The notes below the pieces were generated by a model. It searched no databases. It saw nothing but the letters and a program-made list of their open reading frames with translations, and was not told where the DNA came from. From the NCBI GenBank assembly GCA_023512135.1, contig JAIMAG010000004.1, forward strand, positions 124,001 through 188,000: DNA of 64,000 bases, in the 5' to 3' direction. This document shows, piece by piece, positions 26,724 through 55,171 of the stretch (its first letter is position 1; each line of letters begins with the position of its first letter). A program made the translations under genes and the position numbers. The DNA comes from Terriglobia bacterium. GTDB taxonomy: Bacteria; Acidobacteriota; Terriglobia; Acidiferrales; UBA7541.

Positions 26724-28304
26724 GTGAGAACACCGGATCCAACACGGCTGGAAATTTTCAAGAACCTGTTCCACTCCGTCGCCGAGGAGATGGGCGCAGC
26801 GCTGCGTCGGGTGGCCTTTTCGCCGAACATCAAAGAGCGGCGCGACTACTCCTGCGCCGTGTTCGACTCCGCCGGCCAGGTGCTCGCCATGGGCGATCAC
26901 ATGCCGGTGCACCTGGGCTCGATGCCGGCTTCGGTGGCGGCGGCGATCCGGGCACTTTCCCTTGCGCCGGGCGATGTGGCGTTGCTGAACGATCCCTACG
27001 CCGGGGGAACGCACCTGCCGGATCTGACCATGGTGATGCCGGTCTATCTGCCGCGGGACCGCAGGCCCGCGTTCTACGTGGCCAATCGCGCGCATCACGC
27101 CGACGTGGGCGGCAGCCAGGCCGGTTCCATGGGACTGGCACGCGAGATCTATCAGGAGGGACTGCGCATCCCCCCGGTGAAAATCTACCAGCGCGGACGG
27201 CTGGTGCGCGACGTGCTGTCCATGATTCTGGGAAATGTGCGCACGCCCGAGGAACGTCGAGGTGACCTGGCGGCTCAGATTGCCGCCTGCCGGATCGGAG
27301 AGCGCCGGCTGCGGGAGATCGTGGCGAAGTACGGGCGGCGGGAGGTGTTCGCCTACGCGCGCCATCTGCTGGAGTATTCAGCGCGGATGATGGCCGGTGT
27401 GCTCCGCACGATTCCAGATGGTACCTACCGCGCCGAAGATTTTCTCGATGACGATGGCATCGAACCCCGTCCGCTGCGCATCGCCGTGACGATTCGCATC
27501 CGGGGCGGCCGCGCCGTGGTGGACTTCACCGGTTCGGCGCCGCAATGTGCCGGCAGTGTGAATGCCGTGCGCGCGATAACCGAGTCGGCGGTGTTTTACG
27601 TTTTCCGCTGCCTGCTCGACGAGCAGGTGCCGGCTACAGCCGGGTTGATGCGTCCGATTCGGGTGGTGGCGCCCGAAGGCAGTATCGTCGCGGCGCGGCC
27701 GCCGGCCGCCGTTGCAGGAGGCAACGTAGAAACTTCCCAGCGCACCGTGGATGTGCTGCTGCGTGCGCTGGCCCGGGCCGTCCCTGCGCGCATCCCGGCG
27801 GCCAGCCAGGGCACGATGAACAACCTGACCCTGGGCGGCAGCGACCCTCGCCGCGGCGGCGCGCCGTTCGCCTACTACGAAACGATTGCTGGGGGCATGG
27901 GCGCGCGGCCGGGCAAAGACGGCATCAGCGGCATCCACACCCACATGACCAATTCGCTCAACTCCCCCATCGAAGTCCTCGAGCACGCCTATCCGGTGCG
28001 TGTGCGACGCTATGTGCTGCGGCGGGGCTCGGGCGGGGCGGGAAGATGGCGCGGCGGCGATGGCCTCGTCCGCGAAATCGAACTGCTGGATGAAACGCAA
28101 GTCGGCCTGCTTTCTGACCGGCGCCGCTTTGGCCCTTATGGATTGGCTGGAGGTCGGCCGGGCAAGCCCGGACGAAACCTGCTCATCGTCGGGGGCCGGC
28201 GTCGGCTGCTGGCCGGCAAATGCGGCTTCTATGCGCCTGTAGGAGCCATCCTCCGCATCGAAACGCCCGGTGGCGGCGGCTGGGGCAAGCCTGTAAAAAA
28301 ATAG
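26724..28304 (+). CDS. hyuB: Hydantoinase/oxoprolinase, subunit B
   Basis: Partner of the preceding gene, 526 residues. Family hallmarks are [50 protein letters not shown] and [17 protein letters not shown] (likely metal ligands His/Asp). [48 protein letters not shown] and the C-terminal [10 protein letters not shown] are also present. HyuB provides the hydrolase half; HyuA activates the amide with ATP. The start is a GTG with a modest purine-rich site before it. The gene is followed by 174 bases of noncoding sequence containing the carD terminator on the other strand. Confidence 0.93.
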
Positions 28305-28361
28305 CATCGGTGGCCGCTAGTCCTGCTGGGTCGGGCTGAAAAGCGCTTTCCGGAAAATGGC

Positions 28362-28430
28362 AAAAACCGCCCCGCTGCTCTTTCAACCGTGCCCGGTGAA
28401 GAGCAGTCTCCGGCTTGTCCGAAGAGGCGG
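28362..28430 (-). terminator. Three-stem terminator-like RNA structure 3' of carD
   Basis: On the minus strand a 7-bp closing stem (CCGCCTC at 28424-28430 with GGGGCGG at 28367-28373, one G-T pair) encloses two hairpins: TTCGG/CCGGA (28409-28423) and CTGCTCTT/AAGAGCAG (28375-28406, with an inner ACCG/CGGT stem). TTTTT (28362-28366) follows directly. It lies 48 bases after the carD stop. The T-run suggests termination; the branched fold is more elaborate than usual. Confidence 0.55.
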
Positions 28431-28478
28431 CTGAAGCTCGTCTCTGCAGTGACGAAGAATATTGGGAGCTGGCGAGAC

Positions 28479-29000
28479 TTACTCAGGCGATTCGGTTCCG
28501 GTCGGCAATTGCAATCGGGCCTTGGCCAGCGCGCGCATCAGGCTGGATTCGATGGCCGTTTCTGTTGTGCCCTTGGCCACGGCCATCTCACTGACCAGCA
28601 GTTGCTTGGCCCGTTCCAGCATCTTCTTTTCTCGGAACGAAAGCGGTTTGGTCCGGCTCAGCGCCAGCAGGCTTTTCAGCACGGCGGCCACATCCATCAG
28701 CGAGCCTGTTCGCATCCGTTCGGAGTTTTCCTTGTAGCGATGTTTCCAGTCGTGATGGTTGGTGCAGCGGCCTTTTTCGAGGAAGGAGAGCACTTTCGAG
28801 GTCTCTGCCGGTCGGATCAGGGGTCGCAGGCCCACGGCTTCGACATTGGTCTGCGGTACCATGACGCGCGAGCCGGTGGATAAGATGCGCAGGGTGTAGT
28901 ACTTGACCGTTCTTCCGTTCAGCATTCCGTAACTGATTTGTTCGATGACGCCGACTCCCTGGTTCGGGTAGACCACTTTATCCCCATGCTTGAAATCCAT
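28479..29000 (-). CDS. carD: CarD-family RNA polymerase-binding transcription regulator
   Basis: A 173-residue protein. The N-terminal RNA polymerase interaction domain (FKHGDKVVYPNQGVGVIEQI, residues ~3-60) resembles that of Mfd. The C-terminal helical DNA-binding domain (~65-160) has KRCTNHHDWK-like and MDVAAVLKSLLALS, RTKPLSFREKKMLERAKQLL segments. CarD stabilises open promoter complexes, often at rRNA promoters, in actinobacteria, Thermus and Acidobacteria-like phyla. ATG at 29000 is used: a GGGGAG ribosome-binding site precedes it, and the longer frame would run through its own promoter. It diverges from tsaB. Confidence 0.94.
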   Translation of the reverse strand: MDFKHGDKVVYPNQGVGVIEQISYGMLNGRTVKYYTLRILSTGSRVMVPQTNVEAVGLRPLIRPAETSKVLSFLEKGRCTNHHDWKHRYKENSERMRTGSLMDVAAVLKSLLALSRTKPLSFREKKMLERAKQLLVSEMAVAKGTTETAIESSLMRALAKARLQLPTGTESPE

Positions 29001-29017
29001 AGGACTCTCCCCAAGCA

Positions 29018-29195
29018 GGCATGCCATTTGATTGTAGGCATGCGGCTTAGACAGCGTCAAGGATTCATTTGAAAAATCCCCCCGCCGCTTGCGGCTGGTT
29101 CGTGATACCCGCTGGCGCCGACGAGGGTACGGTTCACGTCCAGCAGAGGCGGCATGCAGCCGCAGAACGGCCCTTGCGATAGAATGCCGGCATGC
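29018..29195. repeat. Four copies of GGCATGC in the carD-tsaB intergenic region
   Basis: The heptamer GGCATGC, containing the palindrome GCATGC, occurs at 29018-29024, 29037-29043, 29151-29157 and 29189-29195. The first two are 19 bases apart and flank the -10 element of the carD promoter; the last overlaps the tsaB start codon. They could be operator sites for a regulator of both genes. The motif does occur singly elsewhere in the window. Confidence 0.45.
29031..29060 (-). promoter_or_regulatory. Strong sigma70 promoter of carD
   Basis: On the minus strand TTGACG (29055-29060), 18 bases, then TACAAT (29031-29036); both hexamers match 5/6. Expected transcript start near 29024, leader about 24 bases with a GGGGAG ribosome-binding site. 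Confidence 0.75.
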
Positions 29196-29923
29196 GGACG
29201 CTGGCGGTGGATACGAGCACGCAGTCGGGCAGCCTGGCGGTGGTGGAGTCGGTCGCCGGGCCGGAGGGCGCAGCCGGGACTGAACCGTGGGTGCGGGTGC
29301 TCGGGGTCGTCTCTACCTGTACCGACGAGACCTACTCCTCGCGGATGTTCCGTCAACTCGATTTTCTGCTGCGCGAGACGGGACTCGAACTCGGCAGTTT
29401 CGATCTTTTTTCCGTGGCCGCGGGGCCGGGTTCTTTCACCGGTTTGCGCGTGGGTCTGGCGGCGGTCAAAGGTTGGGCTGAGGTCTACCGGAAGCCGGTG
29501 GCGGCGATCAGCGGTCTGGAAGTCGTGGCCGCGCAGGCCCGCGCACCAGAGCCACTGCTGGTGCCGGTTGTGGATGCTCGCCGCGGACAGGTCTACGCCG
29601 GGGTGTATCGCCGCACCGACCACGGGCTCAGCCGCGTGGGCGATGAGGTGGTCATGACGCTGGCCGAATTTCTGGCCGAGCTGCCGCCGCGCGTCGAAGA
29701 TCGCGCCTTCGCCTTCGTGACCACTTCGCCGGAACTGCTGGCCGGGCCGCTGGCGGAATCGCCGTTCCGCCATCGCCCGCTGGAAGTTGTCTCCAATGTA
29801 CTCGCGCCCGTGCTGGGAGCGCTCGGCTTGGCGCGGGCCCAGCGGGGCGAACTGGTCGATGCGGTTGCGCTCGACGCTCACTACATCCGCCGCTCGGACG
29901 CCGAACTGCTGTGGAAAGGCTGA
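29192..29923 (+). CDS. tsaB: tRNA threonylcarbamoyladenosine biosynthesis protein TsaB
   Basis: Non-catalytic partner that dimerises with TsaD in t6A formation. The ASKHA-fold N-terminus MRTLAVDTSTQSGSLAVVE and the family motif VAAGPGSFTGLRVGLAAVKG (residues ~75-94) are clear. Length 243 residues. A TAGAAT hexamer at 29180-29185 ends only 6 bases before the ATG, which would place the transcript start at or next to the start codon; no -35 match was found and no ribosome-binding site is visible, so the mRNA may be leaderless. The 3' end overlaps rimI by 13 bases, a very common pairing. Confidence 0.94.
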   Translation: MRTLAVDTSTQSGSLAVVESVAGPEGAAGTEPWVRVLGVVSTCTDETYSSRMFRQLDFLLRETGLELGSFDLFSVAAGPGSFTGLRVGLAAVKGWAEVYRKPVAAISGLEVVAAQARAPEPLLVPVVDARRGQVYAGVYRRTDHGLSRVGDEVVMTLAEFLAELPPRVEDRAFAFVTTSPELLAGPLAESPFRHRPLEVVSNVLAPVLGALGLARAQRGELVDAVALDAHYIRRSDAELLWKG

Positions 29924-30378
29924 TTGCCATCCGCCCGCTGGCTGCGGACGACCTCGATGCGGTGTTGCAGATTCAGGCGCAGTGCCCCGAGATCGTTGCC
30001 TGGAGCCGCGCCAGCTATGCGCCGGTCGTGCGCGGCGAATATCCCGGCTGGGTGGCTGCGGCGGATTCCCGAGTGCTGGGCTTTGTCGTCAGCCGGAAAA
30101 CGGCGGAAGAAGCCGAAATTCTGAATCTGGCCGTATTGCCTGAGGCCCGGCGGCAGGGCATCGGCAGCCGACTGCTCGTGCAGGTTCTGGAAGAGGCCCG
30201 GCAGGCCGGCGCCCGCCGCGTGTGGCTGGAGGTGCGCGCCTCGAATGCGGCGGCCATCCGCTTCTACGAGCGCCACGGATTCCGGCTGCGAGGACTGCGG
30301 CGCGACTATTACTCGAACCCGCGCGAAGACGCTCTGCTCTACTGCTGCGAGCTCGTTCAATCGCCGCAGGGGAAGTGA
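29911..30378 (+). CDS. rimI: GNAT acetyltransferase, RimI-like (ribosomal protein S18 alanine N-acetyltransferase)
   Basis: A 155-residue GNAT protein. The acetyl-CoA binding motif RRQGIGSRLLVQVLEEARQA follows the beta-4 strand AEILNLAVLPEA. The C-terminal signature VRASNAAAIRFYERHGFRLR and RRDYYSNPREDALLY match RimI. RimI acetylates the N-terminus of S18 and probably other proteins. The start is GTG inside the end of tsaB (13-base overlap), indicating translational coupling. A 159-base gap with the nuoA promoter follows. Confidence 0.92.
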   Translation: MERLIAIRPLAADDLDAVLQIQAQCPEIVAWSRASYAPVVRGEYPGWVAAADSRVLGFVVSRKTAEEAEILNLAVLPEARRQGIGSRLLVQVLEEARQAGARRVWLEVRASNAAAIRFYERHGFRLRGLRRDYYSNPREDALLYCCELVQSPQGK

Positions 30379-30479
30379 AACGCCGGAGCGGTCCTGGGCT
30401 CGTTCTGCGCGGGTTTCCTGCGTGGAAAATCCGGCGAAAGGGGCATGAGTGCCGCGCCGCTGTGGACAAGTGCGGAGTA

Positions 30480-30508
30480 CTGACTCGAATGCATTGTTGT
30501 GGTAGCAT
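30480..30508 (+). promoter_or_regulatory. Candidate promoter of the first nuoA
   Basis: CTGACT (30480-30485), 17 bases, then TAGCAT (30503-30508); each 4/6 to consensus. Predicted leader about 23 bases to the ATG at 30538. Confidence 0.45.
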
Positions 30509-30537
30509 AGCGCGGCTGGTTTGGAGTTGCGGATACG

Positions 30538-30903
30538 ATGCCGGAGCACTACATTCCGATTTTCATTTTTGCTGCGCTGGCCGCGGCGTTTCCGGCCGTC
30601 ACGCTGATCATTTTCAAGTACATCCGGCCGGAGATGCGCGCCGTGGGCGCGAAGCTCGAGCCGTACGAGTGCGGCATCCCTCCCGAGGGCGATGCCCGCG
30701 GACGGTATTCGGTGCGCTTCTACATCGTGGCCATTCTGTTTGTCATTTTCGATGTGGAGGTCATCTTCCTGTTTCCCTGGGCGGTGCAGTACGGGGTGCT
30801 GGGATTGTATGGGCTGGTAACAATGTTCGTTTTTCTCGGCATTTTGCTGATCGGGTACGTGTGGCTGTACCGCAGCGGCGCCCTGGAGTGGATCTACGAA
30901 TGA
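30538..30903 (+). CDS. nuoA: NADH-quinone oxidoreductase subunit A (cluster 1)
   Basis: Small membrane subunit of complex I near the quinone site, 121 residues and three transmembrane helices. Conserved loop KLEPYECGIPPEGDARGRYS and the membrane acidic motif VIFDVEVIFLFPWAV identify it. It is a paralogue of the nuoA at 55194-55565. Unusually it is followed 17 bases later by a strong terminator, so it seems to be transcribed separately from nuoC onward. nuoB, normally next, is absent. Confidence 0.95.
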   Translation: MPEHYIPIFIFAALAAAFPAVTLIIFKYIRPEMRAVGAKLEPYECGIPPEGDARGRYSVRFYIVAILFVIFDVEVIFLFPWAVQYGVLGLYGLVTMFVFLGILLIGYVWLYRSGALEWIYE

Positions 30904-30920
30904 CCCGCAACGGATATCTT

Positions 30921-30948
30921 CCCGGTCGTCTTCGGCCGGGCTTTTTTT
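30921..30948 (+). terminator. Strong rho-independent terminator between nuoA and nuoC
   Basis: An 8-bp stem (CCCGGTCG at 30921-30928 with CGGCCGGG at 30933-30940, one G-T pair), a TCTT loop, then C and seven T residues (30942-30948). It lies in the position normally occupied by nuoB. Confidence 0.85.
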
Positions 30949-30987
30949 ATGCCGTGCTGCGGTGCGAAGAACGATGCAGTGCGGGCG

Positions 30988-31017
30988 TTGACGCCTTTTT
31001 TGTCGGTATGTTAGAAA
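30988..31017 (+). promoter_or_regulatory. Candidate promoter of nuoC-N/atp operon
   Basis: TTGACG (30988-30993, 5/6), 18 bases, then TAGAAA (31012-31017, 4/6). A short inverted repeat GTTAG-AAA-CTAAC (31010-31022) overlaps the -10. Predicted leader about 70-80 bases. Confidence 0.5.
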
Positions 31018-31095
31018 CTAACGCTTAATTTCAGCAGTTTTTGCGACGAGCGGGTGGAGGCCTCGCGCGCAGCCAAGTCTCGACCAGTCCTGATC

Positions 31096-31749
31096 ATGGC
31101 CGACGAACCAACCTCCAAGCAGCCCGAAAAGCGACCGGAGACCTCCGAGGGCCAGCCCCCGGCCCGGGAGACTTCTGCGCAGAAGCCTGCCGAAAAGCCG
31201 GCCGGGGAAAAGCCTGTTCCGCCGAAGAAAGAAGCTCCGCCGGCCTGGCCGAAGCCGCTGGACAACGAGATGGTGCGCCGCTTCCGCCAGCGCTTCGGAG
31301 ACGCCATCCTGGATGCGCTCGAAGACCGCAAACAGGCCATCCTGGTGGTCGCGGCGGAACGGCTCCGCGAAATTGCCGAGTACGCGCGCGACGAAGAGCA
31401 GTTCGATATGCTGACTGACCTGACCGCCGTGGACTGGCCCAAGCGCGAGAAGCGGTTCGACCTGGTGGTGAACCTGTACAGCTTTCCGCGCAACGAACGT
31501 TTGCGCCTGAAAGCCGCCGTCGGCGAACACGACCAGCCGCCCAGCCTGGCTCCGGTGTGGGCAGCGGCGAATTGGCTCGAGCGCGAATGCTTCGATATGT
31601 TCGGCATTCGTTTCGAGGGGCACCCGGACCTGCGCCGGATTCTCCTGCCGGACGAATGGGTGGGGCATCCCCTGCGCAAGGACTACGACATCCTGCAGCA
31701 GGATACGGCCTGGGTGCGCGAAAACCTGGGCATCGAAAGCGGACAGTAA
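31096..31749 (+). CDS. nuoC: NADH-quinone oxidoreductase subunit C (cluster 1) with charged N-terminal extension
   Basis: A peripheral-arm subunit. The NuoC core begins near residue 50. It contains [20 protein letters not shown] and the signature [20 protein letters not shown] with [17 protein letters not shown]. The first ~50 residues ([19 protein letters not shown] and on) are rich in Lys, Pro and Glu, probably disordered, and absent from the cluster 2 paralogue. ATG at 31096 is chosen although no clear ribosome-binding site is visible; an in-frame GTG at 31054 is an alternative. nuoD starts 3 bases after the stop. Confidence 0.93.
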
Positions 31750-31752
31750 CCG

Positions 31753-32901
31753 ATGGCCGAAACGCCTACTCGCCACGTGCACTTCCCGGGCATGGACACG
31801 ACCGTGCTCGGCGCCGACGAAATCATCATCAACATGGGCCCGCAGCACCCCTCCACGCACGGCGTGCTGCGCGTGAAGCTGCACCTGGACGGCGAAAAAG
31901 TCATCGGCTCGGAATGCATCATCGGCTATCTGCACCGCGGCGTCGAAAAAATCGCCGAGCACCGCAGCTACCAGCAGTTCGCCCCCTATGTGGACCGCAT
32001 GGACTACGTGGCCGCGGTTTCCAACGGGCTCGGCTACTGCGAGGCAGTCGAAAAGCTGCTGGAAGTCGAAGTGCCGCCGCGCGCGAAAGTCGTCCGCACG
32101 ATCCTGACCGAGCTGCAGCGCATTGCCAGCCACCTGCTCTGGCTCGGCACCCATGCCCTGGACATCGGCGCACTGACGCCCATCTTTTACTGTTTCCGGG
32201 AACGCGAAGAGATTCTGAAAATTTTTGAGAAATACTGCGGCGCGCGTCTCACCACGCACGCCTTCCGCATCGGCGGTCTCCAGTACGAGGTTTATGACGG
32301 CTTCGAGGAGGACGTCAAGCGCTTCCTGGCGGACTTCGACCGGAAAATTGACGAATACGAAGCCCTGCTCACCACGAACCGCATCTGGGTCGAGCGCACG
32401 AAGGGCATCGGAGTGCTTTCAGCGCAGGACGCCATTGCGCTGGGCGTCACCGGCCCCGTGCTGCGAGCCAGTGGCGTGAAGTGGGACATCCGCAAAGCCT
32501 TCCCGTACGCGGCCTATGACCGCTACGACTTCGAAATCCCCGTAGGCAGCAACGGCGATACCTACGACCGCTACCTGGTGCGCATGGAAGAGATGCGGCA
32601 GTCGCGTCGCATCTGCTTGCAGGCGATCGAAGACATCCCTTCAGGGCCCATCCTGGGCAAGGTGGGCAAGGTGATGAAGCCGGCACCGGGAGAAGTCTAT
32701 CATTCGATCGAAGCGCCCAAGGGCGAGCTGGGCTACTACATCGTCAGCGACGGCACCACGCAGCCCTATCGCGTGCGCATCCGTCCCCCGTCGTTCATCA
32801 ACCTGCAGGCGTTCGACACCATGGTGCGGGGGCATCTGGTGGCCGACGTGGTGGCGATTATCGGTACGATCGACATCGTACTCGGCGAGGTGGACCGCTA
32901 G
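31753..32901 (+). CDS. nuoD: NADH-quinone oxidoreductase subunit D (cluster 1)
   Basis: The 49-kDa-type subunit that forms the quinone-binding cavity with NuoB. Diagnostic motifs are [20 protein letters not shown] (quinone-site His), [36 protein letters not shown] (quinone-site Tyr), [20 protein letters not shown] and the C-terminus [17 protein letters not shown]. Length 382 residues. All quinone-site residues I can identify are kept, so the subunit looks functional, yet the NuoB partner is not encoded nearby. Confidence 0.96.
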
Positions 32902-32911
32902 GCGGGTCGCT

Positions 32912-34225
32912 ATGGACGCTGTCGTGGAATTTTTGAAGCCGCACCTGCTGCCGCTGCTCTGGGCGGTAGTGATTGTCGCGGTGCTGCCGCTGGTGGCGGG
33001 CTACATCGTGCTGCTCGAGCGCAAAGTGATGGCCGACATCCAGGCGCGGCTCGGCCCGATGCGCGTGGGGCCGCACGGACTGCTGCAGCCGATCGCCGAT
33101 GCGCTCAAACTGCTCCTGAAAGAGGACATCATCCCGGCCAACGCCGACAAATGGATTTTCTGGATCGCGCCGCTGATTTCGGTGACCGCAGCCATGCTGG
33201 CGCTTTCGGCCATGCCCTTCGGGCCCGTGTTTCAGATTGCCGACCTGAACGTGGGTCTGCTGTTCATCGTGGCGGTCAGCTCGCTGGGAATTTTCGGCAT
33301 CGTGCTGGGCGGCTGGTCGTCGAACAGCCACTACGCGCTGCTCGGCGCGTTGCGCAGCGCAGCCCAGGTGGTCAGCTACGAAGTCGCCGTGGGCATGGCC
33401 CTGGTCAGCGGCCTGCTGCTGGCGGGCACGCTCTCGATGCGGAAGATGGTCGAAGCGCAGGCCGAGCAGGGCGTCTGGTTCGCGTTTCTGGTTCCCGTCG
33501 GATTTTTCATCTACCTGGTCGCGGGCATCGCGGAGCTGAATCGTGCGCCGTTCGACCTGCCCGAAGCCGAATCCGAGCTCGTGGCCGGCTACATGACCGA
33601 GTACAGCGGCTTTCGCTGGGCGCTCTATTTCCTTGGAGAGTACACGGCCATGATCGTCGTCAGCGGAATCGGCACGACGCTGTTCCTGGGCGGATGGCTG
33701 CGGCCGTTTCCCAACGTGGCGGCATTCGATTTTCTCGATTACCTGCCTGCAGTCCTTTTTCTGGCGCTGACGGGCTACTGCTTCTACCGGGCCCCGAAGC
33801 AGCCGGTGCCGATCCAGAAGGCAGTGATGGGGCTGTTCGGAGTGCTGTGTTTGGGTATCACTGCCGCGCTCGGCTGGGCGGTGACGCTGCCGGCCGAAGC
33901 CGTGGCGCGGGCGGGCATTCTGGGAGCGTTCTGGTTTTTGGCCAAGGTGTTTTTGTTTCTCTACAGCTTCATGTGGTTCCGGTTCACGTTTCCCCGCTAC
34001 CGGTTCGATCAGTTGATGCGGTTGGGATGGCATTTCCTGATTCCTGTCTCGCTGGTGAACGTGATGGGGGTGGGCGCTGCGCTGGTGTTGCATCGGCAGG
34101 CGGGTTGGCCGCTCTGGCAGGGTCTGGTGCTGGGCACGGTCGTCACGCTGGCCGTCGCTGCCTGGCTGATCCTGGTTCGCCAGCGCCGGCCCGTGGCAGC
34201 GCCGTCTGCGGGCGGGGAAGTGTAG
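32912..34225 (+). CDS. nuoH: NADH-quinone oxidoreductase subunit H (cluster 1)
   Basis: Membrane subunit that anchors the peripheral arm and forms the quinone entry channel; 437 residues, about eight to nine transmembrane helices. Conserved loops are ERKVMADIQARLGPMRVGPH (residues ~30-49), ALRSAAQVVSYEVAVGM and AELNRAPFDLPEAESELVAG. The C-terminal ~60 residues add two hydrophobic segments beyond the usual end. In canonical operons nuoI follows; here nuoJ starts 6 bases downstream and nuoI is missing. Confidence 0.96.
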   Translation: MDAVVEFLKPHLLPLLWAVVIVAVLPLVAGYIVLLERKVMADIQARLGPMRVGPHGLLQPIADALKLLLKEDIIPANADKWIFWIAPLISVTAAMLALSAMPFGPVFQIADLNVGLLFIVAVSSLGIFGIVLGGWSSNSHYALLGALRSAAQVVSYEVAVGMALVSGLLLAGTLSMRKMVEAQAEQGVWFAFLVPVGFFIYLVAGIAELNRAPFDLPEAESELVAGYMTEYSGFRWALYFLGEYTAMIVVSGIGTTLFLGGWLRPFPNVAAFDFLDYLPAVLFLALTGYCFYRAPKQPVPIQKAVMGLFGVLCLGITAALGWAVTLPAEAVARAGILGAFWFLAKVFLFLYSFMWFRFTFPRYRFDQLMRLGWHFLIPVSLVNVMGVGAALVLHRQAGWPLWQGLVLGTVVTLAVAAWLILVRQRRPVAAPSAGGEV

Positions 34226-34231
34226 GGCGCG

Positions 34232-34753
34232 ATGGTTGAGCAGTTCACGTTTTATTTCTTTGCGGCTCTGGCGGTGATTTCCGCGGTGCTGGTGGTTACC
34301 GTGCGCAATGCCGTCTACAGCGCCGTGTTTCTGATCACCACGCTGCTGGCCACCGCGGGAATTTTCCTGCAACTGCGCGCCGAATTCCTGTTCGTCGTAC
34401 AGATCATCCTGTATGTCGGCGGGATCATGGTGCTGTTTGTCTTTGTCGTTATGCTGGTGGACCTGGATGTCGCGTTGCGGCAGGTGCAGTTCAACCGGCA
34501 GAAGTGGGTGGCGCTGCTCGTGGTTCTGGCCGTGGCCGGCCAGCTCGTCTTTGCCCTTGCGCTCGGCAGCGAAGCGCTCGGGCTGCCTGCGGCCGCGCCG
34601 GAATCGCTCGAGCCGAACACCGAGTCGGTGGGCCTGCGGCTGTTCGAGAGTTACATGCTGCCGTTTGAGATCGCCTCGATCCTGCTGCTGGTGGCGATGA
34701 TCGGAGCCGTCCTGCTGGGCAAGCGGCAGAAACCGCCGAGGAGCGAAGCATGA
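34232..34753 (+). CDS. nuoJ: NADH-quinone oxidoreductase subunit J (cluster 1)
   Basis: A five-helix membrane subunit of 173 residues. The conserved N-terminal segment [20 protein letters not shown] and helix 3 with a pi-bulge-type motif ([20 protein letters not shown]) identify NuoJ. The stop overlaps the nuoK start by 4 bases, so the pair is translationally coupled. Length is normal for the family. Confidence 0.95.
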
Positions 34754-35052
34754 TTCCCACGAGCCACTATCTCTATCTGGCGCTGGCGCTGTTTACGATC
34801 GGCGTGCTGGGTGTGCTCACGCGGCGCAACGTGATCATCATTCTGATGTCCATCGAGCTGATTCTCAACGCGGTGAACATCAACCTGGTGGCCTTCGCCC
34901 GGCACTTCGGCTCGGTGGATGGTCAGATTTTTGCGATTTTTGTGGTCACCGCCGCAGCGGCCGAAGCGGCTATCGGCCTGGGAATCATCATTGCGTTTTT
35001 CCGGAACCGGGAAACGGTACTGGCCGACGAAATGGACATGCTGAAGTGGTAG
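34750..35052 (+). CDS. nuoK: NADH-quinone oxidoreductase subunit K (cluster 1)
   Basis: A 100-residue, three-helix subunit. The two membrane glutamates needed for proton transfer are at Glu36 ([12 protein letters not shown]) and Glu72 ([12 protein letters not shown]), the same positions as in E. coli. It starts inside the nuoJ stop codon and precedes nuoL by 7 bases. Confidence 0.96.
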
Positions 35053-35059
35053 CGCAACC

Positions 35060-37141
<2,082 letters not shown>

Positions 37142-37192
37142 TGCCGCTGGCCGGCAAGCAGCCGTCGGCCAGGGGCAAGTGAGGGTGCTGGG

Positions 37193-38818
37193 ATGCAATT
37201 CTTTCAAGATCACATCCTGAGCGTGATCCTGTTCACGCCGACCGTCGGCGCGATCCTGATGCTGTTCATCCGCGGCGACCGGGAAAATGTGCACCGCTGG
37301 ATGGGCAACCTGTTCGGGATGCTGGGCTTTCTGGTGTCGCTGCCGCTGGTGATTCGCCTGGGCGAGAACTGGAACACGTTCAATCCGGCGCTGACCGATT
37401 TTCAGTTCGTCGAAGATGTGGAGTGGATTCCCTCGATCGGCGCTCGCTACGCCCTGGGCGTCGATGGCATCAGCCTGCTGCTGGTGCTGCTGACCACGCT
37501 GCTCGGCGCCATCGCCATTCTTTCCTCCTGGTCGGCAATCACCCAGCGCGTCAAGGAATACTACATCCTGATGCTGTTGCTGCAGACCGGCATGCTCGGA
37601 GTCTTCCTGGCGCTGGATTTCTTCCTGTTCTACGTCTTCTGGGAAGTGATGCTGGTGCCGATGTATTTCCTGATTGGCGTCTGGGGCAGCGATCGACGGC
37701 TGTACGCGGCCATCAAGTTTTTCCTCTACACGTTGGCGGGTTCGGTGCTGATGCTGCTGGCGATTCTGGGCATGTACTTCACCTACGCCCAGCAGACCGG
37801 CGTGTACACCTTCGACATTCGCACGCTGCTCGAAGCCGTGCCCGGCTTCAGCCCCGCGCTCCAGCAGTGGTTGTTCTGGGGGTTGTTCTTCGCCTTCGCC
37901 ATCAAAGTGCCCATGTTCCCGTTCCACACCTGGCTACCCGACGCCCACACCGAAGCGCCCACGGCCGGCTCGGTGATTCTGGCCGGCGTGCTGCTGAAGA
38001 TGGGCACCTACGGCTTTCTGCGCTTCAGCGTGCCGATGCTGCCGGATGCCGTGAAAGAGTATTCGCAGATCATGGTTTGGGTTTCCATTGTCGCCATCAT
38101 CTACGGCGCCCTGGTCTGCATGATGCAGAAGGACATGAAGAAGCTGATTGCCTACTCGTCGGTGAGCCATCTGGGCTTCTGCACGCTGGGCATTTTTGCG
38201 CTGACTCCGCACGGGCTTTCCGGCAGCCTGCTCCAGCAGATCAATCACGGGCTTTCGACCGGTGCGCTGTTTTTGATTGTCGGCGTGCTCTACGAGCGTC
38301 GCCACACCCGCATGATCGCTGACTTCGGCGGGCTGTCCACGCCGATGCCCGGCTTCGCGGCCATCTATCTGATCGTCAGCCTGGCTTCGCTCGGCATGCC
38401 GCTGCTGAACGGCTTCATCGGAGAATTCACGATCCTGCGTGGCGTCTTTGAAGTGAACAAGCACTGGGCCGCCTGGGGCGTGGTGGGCATCGTGCTCGGT
38501 GCGGCCTATCTGCTCTGGCTCTATCAGCGCGTGATGTTCGGCCACGTAACCCACGAGGAAAACAGACACCTGCCCGACCTGAACCTGCGCGAGTACGCCA
38601 CGCTGGTGCCGCTCGTGGTGCTCTGCTTCTGGATCGGCATCTATCCGAAGCCGTTTTTCGAAATCATCGATCCGCCGATGCATCGCATCGTGAACCGCGT
38701 CAATCCGGGGTACTACCTGGTAGACCCGGTGAAGCCCCTTCCGGCACCTTCGGCAGAAACCGGAACCACTTCGGCGACACCCGGCTCGGCCGCGGTGCCG
38801 CCCCAGGAGCAGCGCTGA
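37193..38818 (+). CDS. nuoM: NADH-quinone oxidoreductase subunit M (cluster 1)
   Basis: Antiporter-like proton-pumping subunit of 541 residues. FLFYVFWEVMLVPMYFLIGV contains the conserved pumping glutamate. HTWLPDAHTEAPTAGSVILA, GVLLKMGTYGFLRFSVPML and IAYSSVSHLGFCTLGIFAL are typical of NuoM. The C-terminal ~35 residues are a Pro/Ala/Thr-rich cytoplasmic tail. nuoN starts 2 bases after the stop. Confidence 0.96.
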   Translation: MQFFQDHILSVILFTPTVGAILMLFIRGDRENVHRWMGNLFGMLGFLVSLPLVIRLGENWNTFNPALTDFQFVEDVEWIPSIGARYALGVDGISLLLVLLTTLLGAIAILSSWSAITQRVKEYYILMLLLQTGMLGVFLALDFFLFYVFWEVMLVPMYFLIGVWGSDRRLYAAIKFFLYTLAGSVLMLLAILGMYFTYAQQTGVYTFDIRTLLEAVPGFSPALQQWLFWGLFFAFAIKVPMFPFHTWLPDAHTEAPTAGSVILAGVLLKMGTYGFLRFSVPMLPDAVKEYSQIMVWVSIVAIIYGALVCMMQKDMKKLIAYSSVSHLGFCTLGIFALTPHGLSGSLLQQINHGLSTGALFLIVGVLYERRHTRMIADFGGLSTPMPGFAAIYLIVSLASLGMPLLNGFIGEFTILRGVFEVNKHWAAWGVVGIVLGAAYLLWLYQRVMFGHVTHEENRHLPDLNLREYATLVPLVVLCFWIGIYPKPFFEIIDPPMHRIVNRVNPGYYLVDPVKPLPAPSAETGTTSATPGSAAVPPQEQR

Positions 38819-38820
38819 GC

Positions 38821-40284
38821 ATGCCGACTCTGTTCCCCAATCCCGAAGAACTGGCGCTGATTCTGCCCCAGATCTGGCTGGCTGCGTTCGGTCTGGCCAT
38901 CCTGCTGCTGGATTTTCTGCTGGGCCCGCGCCAGAAATGGGTGAATGCGTTTGGCGCGCTGCTCGGGGTGGCGGCCAGCGGAGTGGCGCTGTGGCGGCTG
39001 CGAGGCGTCCATGCCGTCGGTGTGCCCGGCTTCGGAGGCGCGATTGTCGTGGACCCGTTTTTCGTGTTTTTCGGGTTCCTGTTTCTTGCCTCCACCGCCC
39101 TGGTCATTCTGCTTTCGGTGCGCTACCTCGAAGTAGAAGAAGAGCACCGCGGCGAATACTACGCGCTGATGCTGTTCGCCACCGTCGGCATGATGTTCCT
39201 GGCTGCCGGCACCGACCTGGTGGTGATTTTCGTGGCGCTGGAGACGATGGCCGCCTCCTTCTATGTGCTCACCGGCTACCTGCGGCGGGACAAGCGCTCC
39301 AATGAAGCCGCTCTGAAATATCTACTGCTGGGCGCGTTCAGCTCGGGGCTGCTGGCGTATGGATTTTCGGTGCTGTACGGAATGGCCGGCTCGACGCGGC
39401 TGACGGAAATCGGCTATGCATTTCGCACCCCGAGCAATGAAATCTTCCCCGTGGTGGCGCTGGTGGCCGTCGCTGCCGGACTGTTTTTCAAGGTGGCCGC
39501 TGTACCCTTCCACCAGTGGGCTCCCGATGTGTACGAAGGCGCGCCCACACCGGTGACCGCCTATGTGAGTGTGGCCTCGAAAGCAGCCAGTTTCGCGGTG
39601 CTCATGCGTTTGTTCCTGGTGGTCTTTGAACCGATGCGCGCGAACTGGGAGCTGCTGCTCGGCGGTATCGCGCTGGCGACGATGACTTGGGGCAACCTGG
39701 CCGCTCTCACGCAGACCAACGTGAAACGCCTGCTGGCCTACAGCTCGATTGCGCACGTCGGTTACATCCTGCTGGGTCTGGTAGCCGGCAACGAAACTGG
39801 CCTGAAAGGCATGGCGTTTTACCTGTTTGCCTACGCGTTCATGAACACCGGCGCGTTTGCTATCGTCATTCTGCTGCGGCGCAAAGGCGTGATCGGCGAC
39901 GAGCTGGACGACATGAACGGCCTGATCTACCGCAACCCCACCGCCGCCGTGCTGATGGTGATTTTTCTGATTTCGCTGGCCGGCATCCCGCCGACCGCCG
40001 GTTTTCTGGGCAAATATTTCATCTTCCTGTCTCTGATCGAATCGCAACACTACCTGCTGGCGGTGTTTGCGGTGCTCTACATTGTTCCGGCGGTGTACTA
40101 TTATTTCCGCATTGTCGTGCACATGTGGCTGCGCGAGGCAACCGACGCAACTCGTCCGGCAATCTCCCCGGCGCAGGCCGTCGCGCTGGCCGCCTGCACT
40201 CTGGTGACGCTCGGCGCGCTGCTCTACGCGGAACCGTTCGTGCGCCTGGCCACCTACTCGCTGCTCGGCTCTGTTGTCCGCTAG
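38821..40284 (+). CDS. nuoN: NADH-quinone oxidoreductase subunit N (cluster 1)
   Basis: Third antiporter-like subunit, 487 residues. Signature segments are VALETMAASFYVLTGYLRRD, HQWAPDVYEGAPTPVTAYVS, VKRLLAYSSIAHVGYILLG and AGIPPTAGFLGKYFIF. It is the last nuo gene of cluster 1, and atpZ begins 11 bases after its stop with no terminator between, so nuo and F0 genes appear to share a transcript. Confidence 0.95.
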   Translation: MPTLFPNPEELALILPQIWLAAFGLAILLLDFLLGPRQKWVNAFGALLGVAASGVALWRLRGVHAVGVPGFGGAIVVDPFFVFFGFLFLASTALVILLSVRYLEVEEEHRGEYYALMLFATVGMMFLAAGTDLVVIFVALETMAASFYVLTGYLRRDKRSNEAALKYLLLGAFSSGLLAYGFSVLYGMAGSTRLTEIGYAFRTPSNEIFPVVALVAVAAGLFFKVAAVPFHQWAPDVYEGAPTPVTAYVSVASKAASFAVLMRLFLVVFEPMRANWELLLGGIALATMTWGNLAALTQTNVKRLLAYSSIAHVGYILLGLVAGNETGLKGMAFYLFAYAFMNTGAFAIVILLRRKGVIGDELDDMNGLIYRNPTAAVLMVIFLISLAGIPPTAGFLGKYFIFLSLIESQHYLLAVFAVLYIVPAVYYYFRIVVHMWLREATDATRPAISPAQAVALAACTLVTLGALLYAEPFVRLATYSLLGSVVR

Positions 40285-40295
40285 CCGAAGGTCCG

Positions 40296-40553
40296 ATGCC
40301 CGTCGAAGAGCCACCGCGGAAACGTCCAACCGCTTTTCTTCGCGCTCTGGCCTATGCCATGGAGCTGCCGTTCATCCTGGTGGGCGGAGTGGTCATCGGC
40401 GGAGGCATCGGCTGGTGGCTCGACCAGCAAGCGGGTACACTGCCGCTGTTGGCGATCATGCTGGGTCTGCTCGGGTTCATCGCGGGCTTGCGGGAGATTC
40501 TCCGACGCATCCCCAAAAATGACGAGAAAAGATCCGAACACGGGGACGGTTGA
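40296..40553 (+). CDS. atpZ: AtpZ-like F0F1 ATPase assembly protein
   Basis: A 85-residue protein with two hydrophobic hairpin helices (ELPFILVGGVVIGGGIGWWL and PLLAIMLGLLGFIAGLREIL) and a basic N-terminus (PRKRPTAFLRALA). This is the AtpZ (AtpI-like) arrangement found upstream of F0 genes; AtpZ/AtpI help c-ring assembly and Mg2+/Ca2+ handling. It overlaps atpI by 35 bases in another frame. Confidence 0.85.
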   Translation: MPVEEPPRKRPTAFLRALAYAMELPFILVGGVVIGGGIGWWLDQQAGTLPLLAIMLGLLGFIAGLREILRRIPKNDEKRSEHGDG

Positions 40554-40950
40554 AGCGTTCTATCGCGTGGCGGAGCGACAGATCGAACTCTGGACCCTGC
40601 GGGTGGGTGCCGTCGCAGCCGTCGTCGCAGGCCTGGGTTGGAGCTGGGCCGCGGCGGGCGGCGTGCTGTTGGGCGCGGCGCTGGCGTGGCTCAACTTCCG
40701 CTGGCTGAAGCAGGCCGTGGCGGCACTCGAACACGTCTCGGTGGCGCAGACCCACGGGGACATTGTCCGCATCCCGCGTCGCACATACGTGAAGTTCTTC
40801 GGGCGCTACGTGTTGCTGCTCGCAGTGCTTTATGTTATCTTTTCGCGTTCTTGGTTGCCGGTCGGTGCCGTTTTTGCCGGCCTGTTTGCGCTGGTGGCGG
40901 CTGTGCTGGGCGCTATGATCGTGGCGCTGATTTGCCGCCCGGACCGCTAG
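40519..40950 (+). CDS. atpI: ATP synthase subunit I (AtpI)
   Basis: A 143-residue membrane protein with about four hydrophobic segments (VGAVAAVVAGLGWSWAAAGG, LLGAALAWLNFRWL, YVLLLAVLYVIFSRSWLPVG and AVFAGLFALVAAVLGAMIVA). The YVKFFGRYVLLL and LNFRWLKQ segments fit the ATP synthase I family. AtpI acts as a chaperone for the c-ring. The ATG at 40519 lies inside atpZ. atpB follows after 64 bases containing a strong AGGAGG site about 35 bases before its ATG. Confidence 0.82.
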   Translation: MTRKDPNTGTVEAFYRVAERQIELWTLRVGAVAAVVAGLGWSWAAAGGVLLGAALAWLNFRWLKQAVAALEHVSVAQTHGDIVRIPRRTYVKFFGRYVLLLAVLYVIFSRSWLPVGAVFAGLFALVAAVLGAMIVALICRPDR

Positions 40951-41014
40951 CCCCGCCCAGTCCTGCGATTTCAGGAGGAAGCTCTCCGGGTCAAACACTG
41001 CGAACGTCTGCCCT

Positions 41015-41827
41015 ATGGAACACGAACCCTCTTTCCTGACCGTCTGGTTCAATCATTGGTTTGGCGGCCCGGTGCTGGCGTTGCTGCATGCGCTCGGGAT
41101 TCAACCGCACGACCCTGCCCACCCGATTCCGGAATACATCGTGATGGAAATCTTCGTTTTCCTGTTTGCCGTGGTCTTCGTGCTCTGGTTGAAACGGCGT
41201 CTGTCGGTGGAGCGGCCCGGGGCAGTGCAGCAGTGCGTGGAGATGTTGCTCACCAACCCGATGGGCGTGGGCGTGCGCGACCTGCTCGACGATATGGTCG
41301 GCCACGGCGCCCGCCGCTACATGCCGGTGCTGGGCAGCATCGGGATTTTCATCCTGCTCAGCAATCTGATCAGCCTGATTCCCATTTTCACTTCACCGAC
41401 CGCGCATCCTTCGGTGCCCTTTGCCTGCGCATTGCTGGTGTTCGGCTACTACCATTTTTGTGGACTGCGGAAACACGGGCCGCTCAAGTACGGCCAGCAC
41501 TTTCTGGGGCCGGTGCTGCTCATGTCGCCTCTGATGCTGCTGATTGAGTTGGTCAGCCATCTGGCGCGGCTGCTCTCGCTCACCGTTCGTCTCTGGGTGA
41601 ACATGGTGGTCAGTGAAATGCTGTACCTGATTTTTCTGGGTCTGACCCTGTCCCTGATGCTGTTTGCAGGTGAAGGGAACCCGGCCGGATATGTTCTTGC
41701 CGCGGTGCCTCTGATTTTTCCGATTGTCTTTATTCTGCTGCACCTGTTCGTCGGCGTGCTGCAAGCATTCGTCTTCACGCTGCTGCCTGTGATCTACGTT
41801 GGCGGGGCAGTCGCCGAAGAGCATTGA
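41015..41827 (+). CDS. atpB: ATP synthase F0 subunit a
   Basis: Stator membrane subunit that forms the ion half-channels, 270 residues. The essential arginine is in helix SHLARLLSLTVRLWVNMVVS (Arg of the TVRL motif). The C-terminal helix HLFVGVLQAFVFTLLPVIYV with Gln is also conserved. The N-terminal periplasmic part is short. The only in-frame start near the family N-terminus is ATG at 41015, although the best ribosome-binding site is about 35 bases upstream, leaving initiation efficiency uncertain. Confidence 0.95.
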   Translation: MEHEPSFLTVWFNHWFGGPVLALLHALGIQPHDPAHPIPEYIVMEIFVFLFAVVFVLWLKRRLSVERPGAVQQCVEMLLTNPMGVGVRDLLDDMVGHGARRYMPVLGSIGIFILLSNLISLIPIFTSPTAHPSVPFACALLVFGYYHFCGLRKHGPLKYGQHFLGPVLLMSPLMLLIELVSHLARLLSLTVRLWVNMVVSEMLYLIFLGLTLSLMLFAGEGNPAGYVLAAVPLIFPIVFILLHLFVGVLQAFVFTLLPVIYVGGAVAEEH

Positions 41828-41848
41828 TTCGTCTGGCATGATAACGGC

Positions 41849-41874
41849 CGTGCAGTGTGATCCCGGACTGCACG
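41849..41874 (+). other. Stable hairpin in the atpB-atpE gap
   Basis: CGTGCAGT (41849-41856) pairs perfectly with ACTGCACG (41867-41874) around a 10-base loop. No T-run follows, so it is not a terminator. It precedes an A-rich leader and AAAGGAG site for atpE. It could be an mRNA processing or stability element that raises subunit c output. Confidence 0.5.
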
Positions 41875-41926
41875 AGGATGACCGGGAGCCACCTCCTGCG
41901 GCCTTCTAATACAAAAGGAGACGTTG

Positions 41927-42235
41927 ATGAGAAAAATTTCCGTAGTGCTGATGGCAGTTCTGGCCGCTACCGTGCTCGCGCCGGCGGCGCTGGCGCAAGA
42001 GGGCGGCGGCGCGAGCAGCGTGAACTGGGTCGCACTGACAGCTGGCTTCTCAATGGCCATCGCTTCGGCAGCCTGCGGTTACGCCCAGGCCAAAGCCGTT
42101 TCCGCGGCCTGCGAGGGTTTCGCCCGCAACCCGGGCGCTGCGCCGGCGATTCGCTTCGCCATCATTCTGGCGCTGGTGCTGATCGAGTCGATGGCGCTGT
42201 ACACCTTTGCCATCATCTTCCTGAAAGTCAGCTAG
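41927..42235 (+). CDS. atpE: ATP synthase F0 subunit c with N-terminal signal-like sequence and Na+-type ligand residues
   Basis: Rotor ring subunit, 102 residues. The first 24 residues (MRKISVVLMAVLAATVLAPA, then ALAQ) look like a cleavable signal peptide, ahead of the two-helix hairpin. The polar loop is GFARNP. Aligned without gaps to the Ilyobacter tartaricus c subunit, Gln54, Glu87, Ser88 and Tyr92 occupy the positions of Gln32, Glu65, Ser66 and Tyr70; the Thr67 position is Met89. An AAAGGAG site lies 6 bases before the ATG. This is the last gene before a strong terminator; atpF, atpH, atpA, atpG, atpD and atpC are not in the window. Confidence 0.95.
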   Translation: MRKISVVLMAVLAATVLAPAALAQEGGGASSVNWVALTAGFSMAIASAACGYAQAKAVSAACEGFARNPGAAPAIRFAIILALVLIESMALYTFAIIFLKVS

Positions 42236-42346: not shown

Positions 42347-43786
42347 TCAGCGGAACGACGCGGCAGCCAGCTCGGCGATGCGCATCAGGTGTCCCGGGAA
42401 AATACCCAGCAGCAGTGTGCCGGCGGCCGTAGCTGCCAGTACGAGACCGGTGCCTGCAGGCACGGGTTCGCGCGCGGCGTGCTCATAGGTTGGGTCGGGC
42501 TCCCGGAAATACATGTAGAGAATCACCCGCAGGTAGTAGTACGCGCCGAGCAGAGTGTTGACGGCCGCCAGCACGACCAGACCGAGCAGTTCAGCGCGCA
42601 GGCCAGCCACAAAGACGTAGAATTTGCCCAGGAAGCCCGCCGTCAGGGGCAGTCCGAGCAACGAAAGCAAATAGAGCGAAAGCGTGGCGGCCACCACCGG
42701 CTCGCGCCGGGCCAAGCCGGCGTAGTCTTCCAGGGTGAGCCGTCGTTCGCCGCGTCCGGCCAGGTGCGCTACCAGTGTGAAAGCCCCCAACTTCATCAGC
42801 GCGTAGGCAGCCAGGTAATAGAGCGCGGCAGCGTAGGCGGCTTCCGTGCCCGCGGCTAGCGCCACCAGGATGTAGCCGGCATGGGCGATGGAGCTGTAGG
42901 CCAGCATGCGTTTCACGTTCGACTGCACCAGCGCCGCCAGGTTGCCCACGAACATCGTCAGCGCTGCGGAACCCCACAGCACCCAGAACCAGAGCAGCGT
43001 CGCCGGCAGCACCGTCCCCGCGATGCGCAGCAGTACGGCAAACGCGGCGGCTTTCGGCGCCGTGCTCAGCAGCGCCGTGACGGGTGCCGGAGCGCCTTCG
43101 TAGACGTCGGGCGTCCACACGTGAAAGGGTGCGCTGGCGACTTTGAAGGCCAGTCCGATGAACACCAGCGCCAGCCCCAGCTTCAGCAGCAGCACGCTGG
43201 CCACGCCTTCGGCCACCTGCTCCAGCCGGGCCGTTCCGGTGGCGCCGTACACGAGGGCCACGCCGAACAGGAAAAACGCCGTGGCGAACGAGCCGAGCAG
43301 GAAGTATTTCAGCGCCGATTCGTTCGCGCGGAGCGCCTCGCGCCGGTAGCTGGCCAGGATGTAGGTGGACAGCGAGCTGATTTCGAGCCCGATGAACACC
43401 GTGACCAGCTCGGCTGCGGCCGCCATCACGCCCATGCCCACACTGCCCAGCAGCACGAGGGCGTAGAATTCTCCGTGCGGCAGGTTTTCCCGGTCCAGGT
43501 ACGCGCGCGCCGCCAGCATCACGAGCAGCGCCGTCGCGTAGATCAGCAGGCGCAGGAAAAACGTGAACGGATCGGCCTGGATCAGGTGGAAGAAAGCGGG
43601 GCCCGCATCGCTGCGCACCAGCACGGCGGCGCCCAGTGCCGCGGCAGCTCCCAGCATCCCGAGCCAGGAAAGCGCAGCTTTGTGTTCGCGGCGCAGGAAC
43701 GGCTCGAGCAGCATCACGATCGTGCCGAACACCGCCGCGAGGATTTCCGGCAGCAGCCGGTAATAGTCGGTCGCAGCAGGGAGCAT
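42347..43786 (-). CDS. nuoN: NADH-quinone oxidoreductase subunit N (cluster 2)
   Basis: Antiporter-like subunit, 479 residues, last gene of the minus-strand cluster. Motifs: VFIGLEISSLSTYILASYRR, HVWTPDVYEGAPAPVTALLS, VKRMLAYSSIAHAGYILVAL and LGLPLTAGFLGKFYVF. It differs widely from the cluster 1 NuoN (for instance HQWAPDVYEG there), so the two clusters are old paralogues or were acquired separately rather than recently duplicated. It starts 9 bases after nuoM. Confidence 0.95.
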   Translation of the reverse strand: MLPAATDYYRLLPEILAAVFGTIVMLLEPFLRREHKAALSWLGMLGAAAALGAAVLVRSDAGPAFFHLIQADPFTFFLRLLIYATALLVMLAARAYLDRENLPHGEFYALVLLGSVGMGVMAAAAELVTVFIGLEISSLSTYILASYRREALRANESALKYFLLGSFATAFFLFGVALVYGATGTARLEQVAEGVASVLLLKLGLALVFIGLAFKVASAPFHVWTPDVYEGAPAPVTALLSTAPKAAAFAVLLRIAGTVLPATLLWFWVLWGSAALTMFVGNLAALVQSNVKRMLAYSSIAHAGYILVALAAGTEAAYAAALYYLAAYALMKLGAFTLVAHLAGRGERRLTLEDYAGLARREPVVAATLSLYLLSLLGLPLTAGFLGKFYVFVAGLRAELLGLVVLAAVNTLLGAYYYLRVILYMYFREPDPTYEHAAREPVPAGTGLVLAATAAGTLLLGIFPGHLMRIAELAAASFR

Positions 43787-43795
43787 CGTTTCCTG

Positions 43796-45382: not shown

Positions 45383-45383
45383 G

Positions 45384-47318
<1,935 letters not shown>

Positions 47319-47621
47319 CTAGAGCTTCAACAAGTTGATGCGTTCGACGTTCAGCGTCTGCCGGTTTCGCGCCAGCAGAAGGATGATGGCCAGCCCCACG
47401 GCCGCCTCGGCGGCAGCCACAATAATCACAAAGAACACGTACACCTGGCCGGACAGCTCGCCCCACTGGCGGCTGAACGTGACGAACGCCAGATTCACCG
47501 CGTTCAACATCAGCTCGATGGACATGAACAGTGTGATGATGTTTCGCTTGAAGAGAAAGCCGATCACGCCCAGTCCGAACAGGATTGCGCTCAGGGTCAG
47601 ATAGTAGCTGGGCGACACCAC
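47319..47621 (-). CDS. nuoK: NADH-quinone oxidoreductase subunit K (cluster 2)
   Basis: 100 residues, three helices. Both functional glutamates are kept: Glu36 in [13 protein letters not shown] and Glu72 in [13 protein letters not shown]. The GTG start lies directly after the nuoJ stop. Same length as the cluster 1 copy but only moderately similar. Confidence 0.95.
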
Positions 47622-47622
47622 G

Positions 47623-48123
47623 TCAGGATTCCCTCCGGCCGAGCACCACGGTGCCCAGGATGGCCACCAGAATCAGAATCGCCGTCAGTTCGAACGGCAG
47701 AACAAACTCGCGGAACAACAGCTGAGCGAGCCGGCGGGTGGGCTCGCTTTCGGCCGGGGCAGCCGGCAGCGCCAGCGCCGAGGCCCCGTCGGCCACCCAC
47801 CAGGCGAACTGCACAGTCAGGTAGATGGCCAGCGGCAGGCCGGCATAGCGCGCCATGCGGCTCCACGAGGTGCGCTCTTCTTCGCCGGCGTTCAGCAGCA
47901 TGATCACAAACACGAACAGCACCATGATCGCGCCCGCATAGACGATCACCTGCACTGCGGCAATGAAGTCCGCCCCCTGCAGCAGGTACAGGCCGGCCAG
48001 CGCCACCATGACCACGATCAGCGACAGCGCGCTCCGAATCGGATGCCGCGCCAGGATCAGACTGAGCGCGCCGGCAATCGCCACCGCAGCCAGCACGATA
48101 AACAGAACGAGCTCGAGCGTCAC
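47623..48123 (-). CDS. nuoJ: NADH-quinone oxidoreductase subunit J (cluster 2)
   Basis: 166-residue membrane subunit. [20 protein letters not shown] and [20 protein letters not shown] are the typical N-terminal and helix 3 segments. The GTG start overlaps the nuoH stop by 4 bases. nuoI, normally between H and J, is therefore absent here as in cluster 1. Confidence 0.95.
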
Positions 48124-51598: not shown

Positions 51599-51629
51599 GT
51601 TGGTGTGGCCCTCTCGGCCAGAACGCACA

Positions 51630-53441: not shown

Positions 53442-53444
53442 GGG

Positions 53445-54644: not shown

Positions 54645-54691
54645 GCTTCTGCTTGGCCTTTCTGCTCGTCCGCTCGGCGTGGCGGACCGGA

Positions 54692-55171
54692 CTACCGGTA
54701 ACCGGTCACCGGATAGTCCTTCCGCAGCGGATGGCCTTCCCAGTCTTCCGGCATCAGGATGCGCCGGAGGTCGGGATGGCCTTCGAAGCGGATGCCCATC
54801 AGGTCGAAGACCTCGCGCTCGTGCCAGTTGGCGGTGGGCCAGACTGTCGACACGGTCTCGAGCGTGGCGGCATTGCCGTCCACACGAACCTTCAGCCGGA
54901 GCCGGTCGCGTCGGGCGATGGAGACCAGGTGATAGTTCACCTCGAAGCGCGGTTCCAAGGGAAAGCGGTCCACCGCGGAGAGGTCCGACAGCAGGTTGAA
55001 CTGCAGCTCCGGGTCGTTGCACAGGAATTCGCACGCGTGCCGGAGCCATTGCCGGGGCACGACCACTGTCAGCTCGCCGCGGTCCTGCCAGGCTTCGGCC
55101 ACCGCGGCCGCGTTCCACTCCCGCAGCTTCCGTACAGTTGGGTGGGCTTCCAGCTCCTGTGGTATGGTCAT
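54692..55171 (-). CDS. nuoC: NADH-quinone oxidoreductase subunit C (cluster 2)
   Basis: 159-residue peripheral-arm subunit. LLSDLSAVDRFPLEPRFEVN and the signature [20 protein letters not shown] with [20 protein letters not shown] identify it. It lacks the long charged N-terminal extension of the cluster 1 copy. It begins 22 bases after nuoA, leaving no room for nuoB. Confidence 0.95.
   Translation of the reverse strand: MTIPQELEAHPTVRKLREWNAAAVAEAWQDRGELTVVVPRQWLRHACEFLCNDPELQFNLLSDLSAVDRFPLEPRFEVNYHLVSIARRDRLRLKVRVDGNAATLETVSTVWPTANWHEREVFDLMGIRFEGHPDLRRILMPEDWEGHPLRKDYPVTGYR

Follow-up and report, generated by a model that had tools for sequence, protein, structure and literature searches.

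In bacteria with split nuo sets, the subunit genes of respiratory complex I are spread over several transcription units, and the order of the nuo genes is reportedly, going by the title of a 2022 study by Oppermann et al., non-essential for assembly in E. coli. The locus described here, which lies in a window of 64,000 nucleotides (the whole stretch of DNA that was analysed) from a draft genome of 2.8 Mb in 51 contigs, resembles such sets in that its genes are probably divided among several units. It differs from them in that the genome carries two paralogous clusters, each without nuoB and nuoI, and in that the former nuoB site of cluster 1 bears a predicted terminator and a predicted promoter. 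Cluster 1 also resembles the 11-subunit type of complex I, its order being A-B-C-D-H-I-J-K-L-M-N minus the displaced B and I, with no E, F or G; the difference is that the nuoB assigned to it, B2, occurs here in a conserved pair with a gene for a soluble Rieske-type ferredoxin. Passages in PMC12361115 state that complex I is complete in most Acidobacteriota species and that split and single-cluster forms are mixed within the majority of clades, and passages in PMC11238625 treat the direct electron donor of the 11-subunit type as an open question, a search for a shared donor protein having failed. In the open-access literature we found no report of the dispersal of nuoB and nuoI in Acidobacteriota or of a Rieske ferredoxin beside nuoB, and no description of paired clusters that both lack nuoB and nuoI and carry a terminator and promoter at the former nuoB site.

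The two regulatory elements are of familiar kinds, with the G-C stem, short loop and U-run of an intrinsic (Rho-independent) terminator and the TTGAC and extended -10 of a sigma-70 promoter, and differ from others of these kinds only in their position inside a respiratory gene cluster. A terminator and a promoter in a gap are ordinary by themselves; what would matter is the larger pattern of two complex I sets in one genome, both without exactly nuoB and nuoI. We favour, with a probability of about 0.8, an account in which the nuoA-nuoC gap of cluster 1 is a transcription boundary, nuoB was relocated, nuoI followed later, and the terminator belongs to some genera only. The ancestral order would have been A-B-C-D-H-I-J-K-L-M-N, from which nuoB, once between nuoA and nuoC, would have been relocated, and nuoI would have departed later from between nuoH and nuoJ. 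At present, nuoA would be transcribed from its own promoter as far as the hairpin at 30921-30948, and a nuoC-D-H-J-K-L-M-N transcript would start from a sigma-70-type promoter of its own at 30988-31017; the terminator may have been gained or retained in some genera only, insulating both units there. The sequences themselves show the two elements and how far they are conserved, the gene orders, and where the displaced genes lie and to what they are related; both the activity of the two elements and the order of events are what we infer from sequence comparison.

Organization of the two nuo clusters

Cluster 1, on the forward strand, reads nuoA, C, D, H, J, K, L, M, N, with nuoA at 30538-30903 (121 aa; stop codon TGA at 30901-30903), nuoC at 31096-31749 and nuoD, H, J, K, L, M and N at 31753-40284. 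It has no nuoE, nuoF or nuoG, i.e. no NADH module, and nuoI is missing between nuoH (end, 34225) and nuoJ (start, 34232). The gap between nuoA and nuoC measures 192 nt, which is insufficient for nuoB. Cluster 2, on the reverse strand (42347-55550), reads nuoA-C-D-EF(fused)-G-H-J-K-L-M-N, with nuoM and nuoN named by best tblastn match, and likewise lacks both nuoB and nuoI; the conserved portion of its nuoC starts 31 nt past the nuoA stop, a space into which a terminator and promoter would not fit. Both nuoB genes of the genome are carried by other contigs (B1 on C13 and B2 on C11), and the two nuoI genes that pass the family cut-off, I1 on C6 and I2 on C31, are in neither cluster. The nuoE and nuoF of cluster 2 form a single reading frame of 603 aa (51630-53441, reverse strand), and the two converging clusters are separated by the genes for ATP synthase I and A chain (40354-41827).

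Terminator downstream of nuoA

Because single matches mean little, the terminator and promoter were judged by comparison across relatives. Among 89 genomes of the family searched, 53 gave a cluster-1-type nuoC match at E 1e-40; one, G058, was split over two contigs and left out, giving 52 genomes examined, in 48 of which nuoA precedes nuoC, and the second G019 copy was excluded from the terminator, promoter and leader counts. Since the terminator cut-off and promoter pattern were set post hoc and the rows are related, which the shuffle controls do not take into account, the counts below describe conservation, not probabilities.

The preliminary description had placed a terminator 17 bases after nuoA, and our sequence analyses confirmed it. 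The hairpin, CCCGGTCG-TCTT-CGGCCGGG (30921-30940), begins 17 nt past the nuoA stop and has a stem of 8 bp, seven of them G-C, a 4-nt loop and a calculated energy of -14.7 kcal/mol; one C and seven T residues (30942-30948) follow, giving the whole element (30921-30948, forward strand) the G-C-rich stem of at least 5 bp, short loop and immediate T-run of an intrinsic terminator. A loose terminator scan of positions 27000-42000 listed 26 sites (15.8 expected, SD 4.4), among which this hairpin had the highest G-C pair count, and shuffles of its own stretch gave a hairpin of -9 kcal/mol or lower with a T-run in 3 of 100 cases. The fold of the entire region 30850-31100 was ordinary (z -0.92). A second, weak terminator-like hairpin with a T-run (30983-30996, forward strand), overlapping the -35 box of the nuoC promoter, was rejected as a genuine terminator and is probably incidental, since its T-run is absent in the congener G001.

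In the relatives, terminators occurred beyond the shuffled controls, being found in 18 of the 48 family genomes in which nuoA precedes nuoC, compared with 1.22 expected from dinucleotide shuffles, when the 90 nt past the nuoA stop were searched for a hairpin of -9 kcal/mol or lower with a T-run, a cut-off that was chosen after the sequences had been inspected and to which two of the 18 lie close (G005, -9.3; G010, -9.6). By genus, the element was present in all genomes of g1 (2/2), g2 (3/3), g5 (6/6), g8 (4/4), g10 (1/1) and g13 (2/2), and none was found in g4 (0/6), g6 (0/20), g7 (0/2), g9 (0/1) and g11 (0/1). Across the 18 terminator-bearing genomes of the six genera, the place of the element is constant and the stem sequence varies. 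As 30 of the 48 genomes have no terminator after nuoA, insulation is no family-wide rule.

The five genera without a terminator also bear on the possibility that cluster 1 is a single operon with an internal promoter, in which read-through would join nuoA to nuoC-N and the hairpin would set the stoichiometry of nuoA or protect a 3' end. The adjacency and common orientation of nuoA and nuoC in 48 of 52 family rows would fit such an operon, as would the genomes of family f3 (G026, G027 and G030), whose A-C gaps of 40-48 nt contain neither terminator nor promoter. In the window, however, the hairpin is followed by seven T residues and, about 40 nt on, by a promoter, and nuoA has a putative promoter of its own, so that we regard a single operon as unlikely. 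This putative nuoA promoter (30480-30508, forward strand; CTGACT-N17-TAGCAT) was flagged by script at this position in G000 and G001 only, and at a different position in G084 and G085; by eye, a TGTGnTAGGAT-like -10 could be seen at the same position upstream of nuoA in most other family rows. The combination of a putative upstream promoter for nuoA, a terminator and a promoter for nuoC suggests that nuoA and nuoC-N are in all likelihood transcribed as two separate units, and the earlier view that nuoA is cut off from the rest of its complex is borne out to the extent that the gene very probably forms a unit of its own.

Promoter and leader of nuoC

A TTGACG-type promoter before nuoC had also been proposed and was recovered at 30988-31017 (forward strand), again beyond shuffled controls in relatives. 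Its -35 box, TTGACG, is at 30988-30993 and its -10 box, TAGAAA, at 31012-31017, with a spacer of 18 nt (17 to TTAGAA) and an extended -10 TG at 31009-31010 (TG-T-TAGAAA); the arrangement TTGACG-18-TAGAAA with TGn has the TTGACA-like -35, 16-18 nt spacing and TATAAT-like -10 of the sigma-70 type. The final -10 base is A instead of T, an off-consensus residue owing to which the initial scan missed the promoter, and its reality thus rests on conservation. Both boxes occur in 44 of the 52 rows of the family (0.0 expected from mononucleotide shuffles), a count that is descriptive since the pattern was widened after the sequences had been inspected, the narrower first pattern having matched 17 of 52, and in which G056 was scored as a miss, though its stretch contains neither nuoA nor nuoC; the -10 alone was found in 48 of 52 rows (0.54 expected from mononucleotide shuffles). 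Beyond the family, the strict motif matched with both boxes in one of 11 rows and with the -10 in two of 11, and TTGA-type boxes were seen by eye in G032, G037, G039, L110, L117, L118 and L119. The promoter string has one exact match genome-wide, and a genome-wide regulon motif was rejected, as only 14 matches with up to two mismatches were obtained vs 46 for the reversed control.

The promoter also precedes nuoC where nuoA is not its neighbour. Thus placed, nuoA is 14 kb distant in G006, lies on a separate contig in G018 and in G035 (a genome of another family of the class), and is absent from the upstream stretch examined in G068. The predicted promoter is, judging from these comparisons, nuoC's own, and not part of a damaged nuoA-nuoC operon.

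The nuoC leader extends from 31018 to 31095 (forward strand), up to an ATG at 31096 that is conserved in the congener G001. Of 47 leaders, 16 carry a GGCTG...CAGCC hairpin pattern between the promoter and the nuoC ATG (0.4 expected from shuffles); they belong to genomes of g2, g5 and g13, some of g6 and one of g4. In the window's genus, a leader riboregulator was rejected (z 0.2; pattern absent in both genomes). The gap gave no Rfam match at the gathering threshold, tRNA elsewhere in the window being the only match, and it is not a dispersed repeat, since it is single-copy in the genome and matches itself only (next best E 0.26). Were the gap an attenuator or a regulatory leader by which nuoC expression is switched, the hairpin with its T-run and the frequency of the leader pattern in relatives would fit; but the nuoC promoter lies downstream of the terminator, making attenuation of the nuoC transcript impossible, and the missing leader hairpin in both genomes of the genus and the lack of an Rfam match in the gap also count against such a switch, which we consider extremely improbable.

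Probable relocation of nuoB and nuoI

The preliminary description had held that nuoB is missing from its usual place, had taken the terminator and promoter as looking like a scar of its removal or relocation, or else as deliberate separate control of NuoA, and had suggested comparing the gap with relatives that keep the gene. Six other Acidobacteriota loci (L127, L129, L132, L133, L137 and L140) do retain nuoB between nuoA and nuoC, in the order A-B-C-D-H-I-J-K-L and continuing to nuoM and nuoN where the locus extends that far, with a nuoA-nuoB match spacing of 11-41 nt; TTGAC was absent from the B-C stretches inspected in nuoB-keeping loci. In G040, of the same class, the order is A-B-X-C-D-H-I-J, X being a PF02636 methyltransferase gene (L249:4135-5106, reverse strand), of a family that we take to include the complex I assembly factor NDUFAF7/MidA. 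The nuoB product of G040 is 73% identical to B2 of the window's genome and 65% to B1, and its nuoI product is 72% identical to I2 and 37% to I1. The A-B pair is kept together, apart from C, in G032 and G037.

These comparisons uphold the relocation, with a matching B2 on another contig, and speak against the terminator and promoter as its scar. In favour of the two elements having been brought in or exposed by the excision of nuoB are the absence of nuoB exactly at the gap, its presence there in the six related loci, and the hairpin with a T-run seen by eye after nuoA in L114, which is also without nuoB. However, cluster 2, the f3 genomes and L107 (with its first nuoC ATG 7 nt past the nuoA stop) have no nuoB between A and C yet carry neither element, the promoter precedes nuoC even without nuoA upstream, and the terminator is found in only six of 11 genera, the other five being without nuoB here as well. 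A direct excision scar is thus quite improbable and, on these gene orders and motif distributions, already appears largely refuted.

For relocation, an order of departure can be proposed. Since L107 and L114 have lost nuoB and retain nuoI, and nuoI stays beside nuoH in G031, G032, G033, G037 and G040, nuoB probably left cluster 1 before nuoI in the line leading to the present order. The NuoI tree places I2 together with the nuoI products still in position in L107 and L114 (support 96/99). In the NuoB tree, B2 falls with the A-linked B of f5 and of L124 (94/71), but the deeper fork has weak support (53/47). The NuoI tree gives I1 no resolved place, and I1 is not assignable to cluster 2. Typing of nuoB and nuoI by best hit is imperfect, as, among the six 11-gene loci, L137 and L140 match B1 best and L132 matches I1 best.

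Ferredoxin gene beside the displaced nuoB

On contig C11 of the window's genome (L224:4197-5089), about 50 nt separate B2 from a downstream gene whose product matches the Pfam Rieske family (E 7e-21) and whose structurally characterized relatives are for the most part dioxygenase ferredoxins. We searched 41 genomes for this ferredoxin, and a B2-type nuoB was fetched and typed in 29 of them. Where B2 is not beside nuoA (26 genomes), the ferredoxin gene is next to it on the same strand in 24, including G029, a 59%-complete genome in which a search for nuoA gave no match; the two exceptions without an adjoining ferredoxin are G031 and G018, the latter with its B2 close to a contig end. Where B2 is beside nuoA (G032, G037 and G040), none of the three has an adjoining ferredoxin gene in the stretches examined. 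In none of the other 12 of the 41 genomes, whose nuoB genes are outside this count, do the coordinates put the best ferredoxin match beside a nuoB. A ferredoxin match at 1e-10 was absent in G009, G024 and G038.

In several families of the class, the nuoB of a complex without an NADH module is thus paired with a gene for a Rieske-type ferredoxin, and because cluster 1 has no such module, the ferredoxin is a candidate partner, open to test, and a concrete candidate for the electron donor of an 11-subunit complex I. Capture of the displaced B2 into a conserved two-gene unit with the ferredoxin, next to separately transcribed nuoA and nuoI2, could mean that the ferredoxin serves the 11-subunit complex of cluster 1 as its dedicated electron donor or regulator and that the scattering of nuoA, nuoB and nuoI couples the complex to a non-NADH electron source. 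This is a speculative and rather doubtful reading, and our estimate of it, low from the start, was lowered slightly further because similar ferredoxins (48-63% identical), apart from nuoB, occur in six family genomes among these 12 (G003, G004, G012, G015, G016 and G022), for which no strong match to a cluster-1 nuoC was obtained.

The displaced I2 also has a constant neighbour, as it adjoins a galT-like gene in the window's genome (L226:2764-4285) and in all seven relatives fetched (L258-L264).
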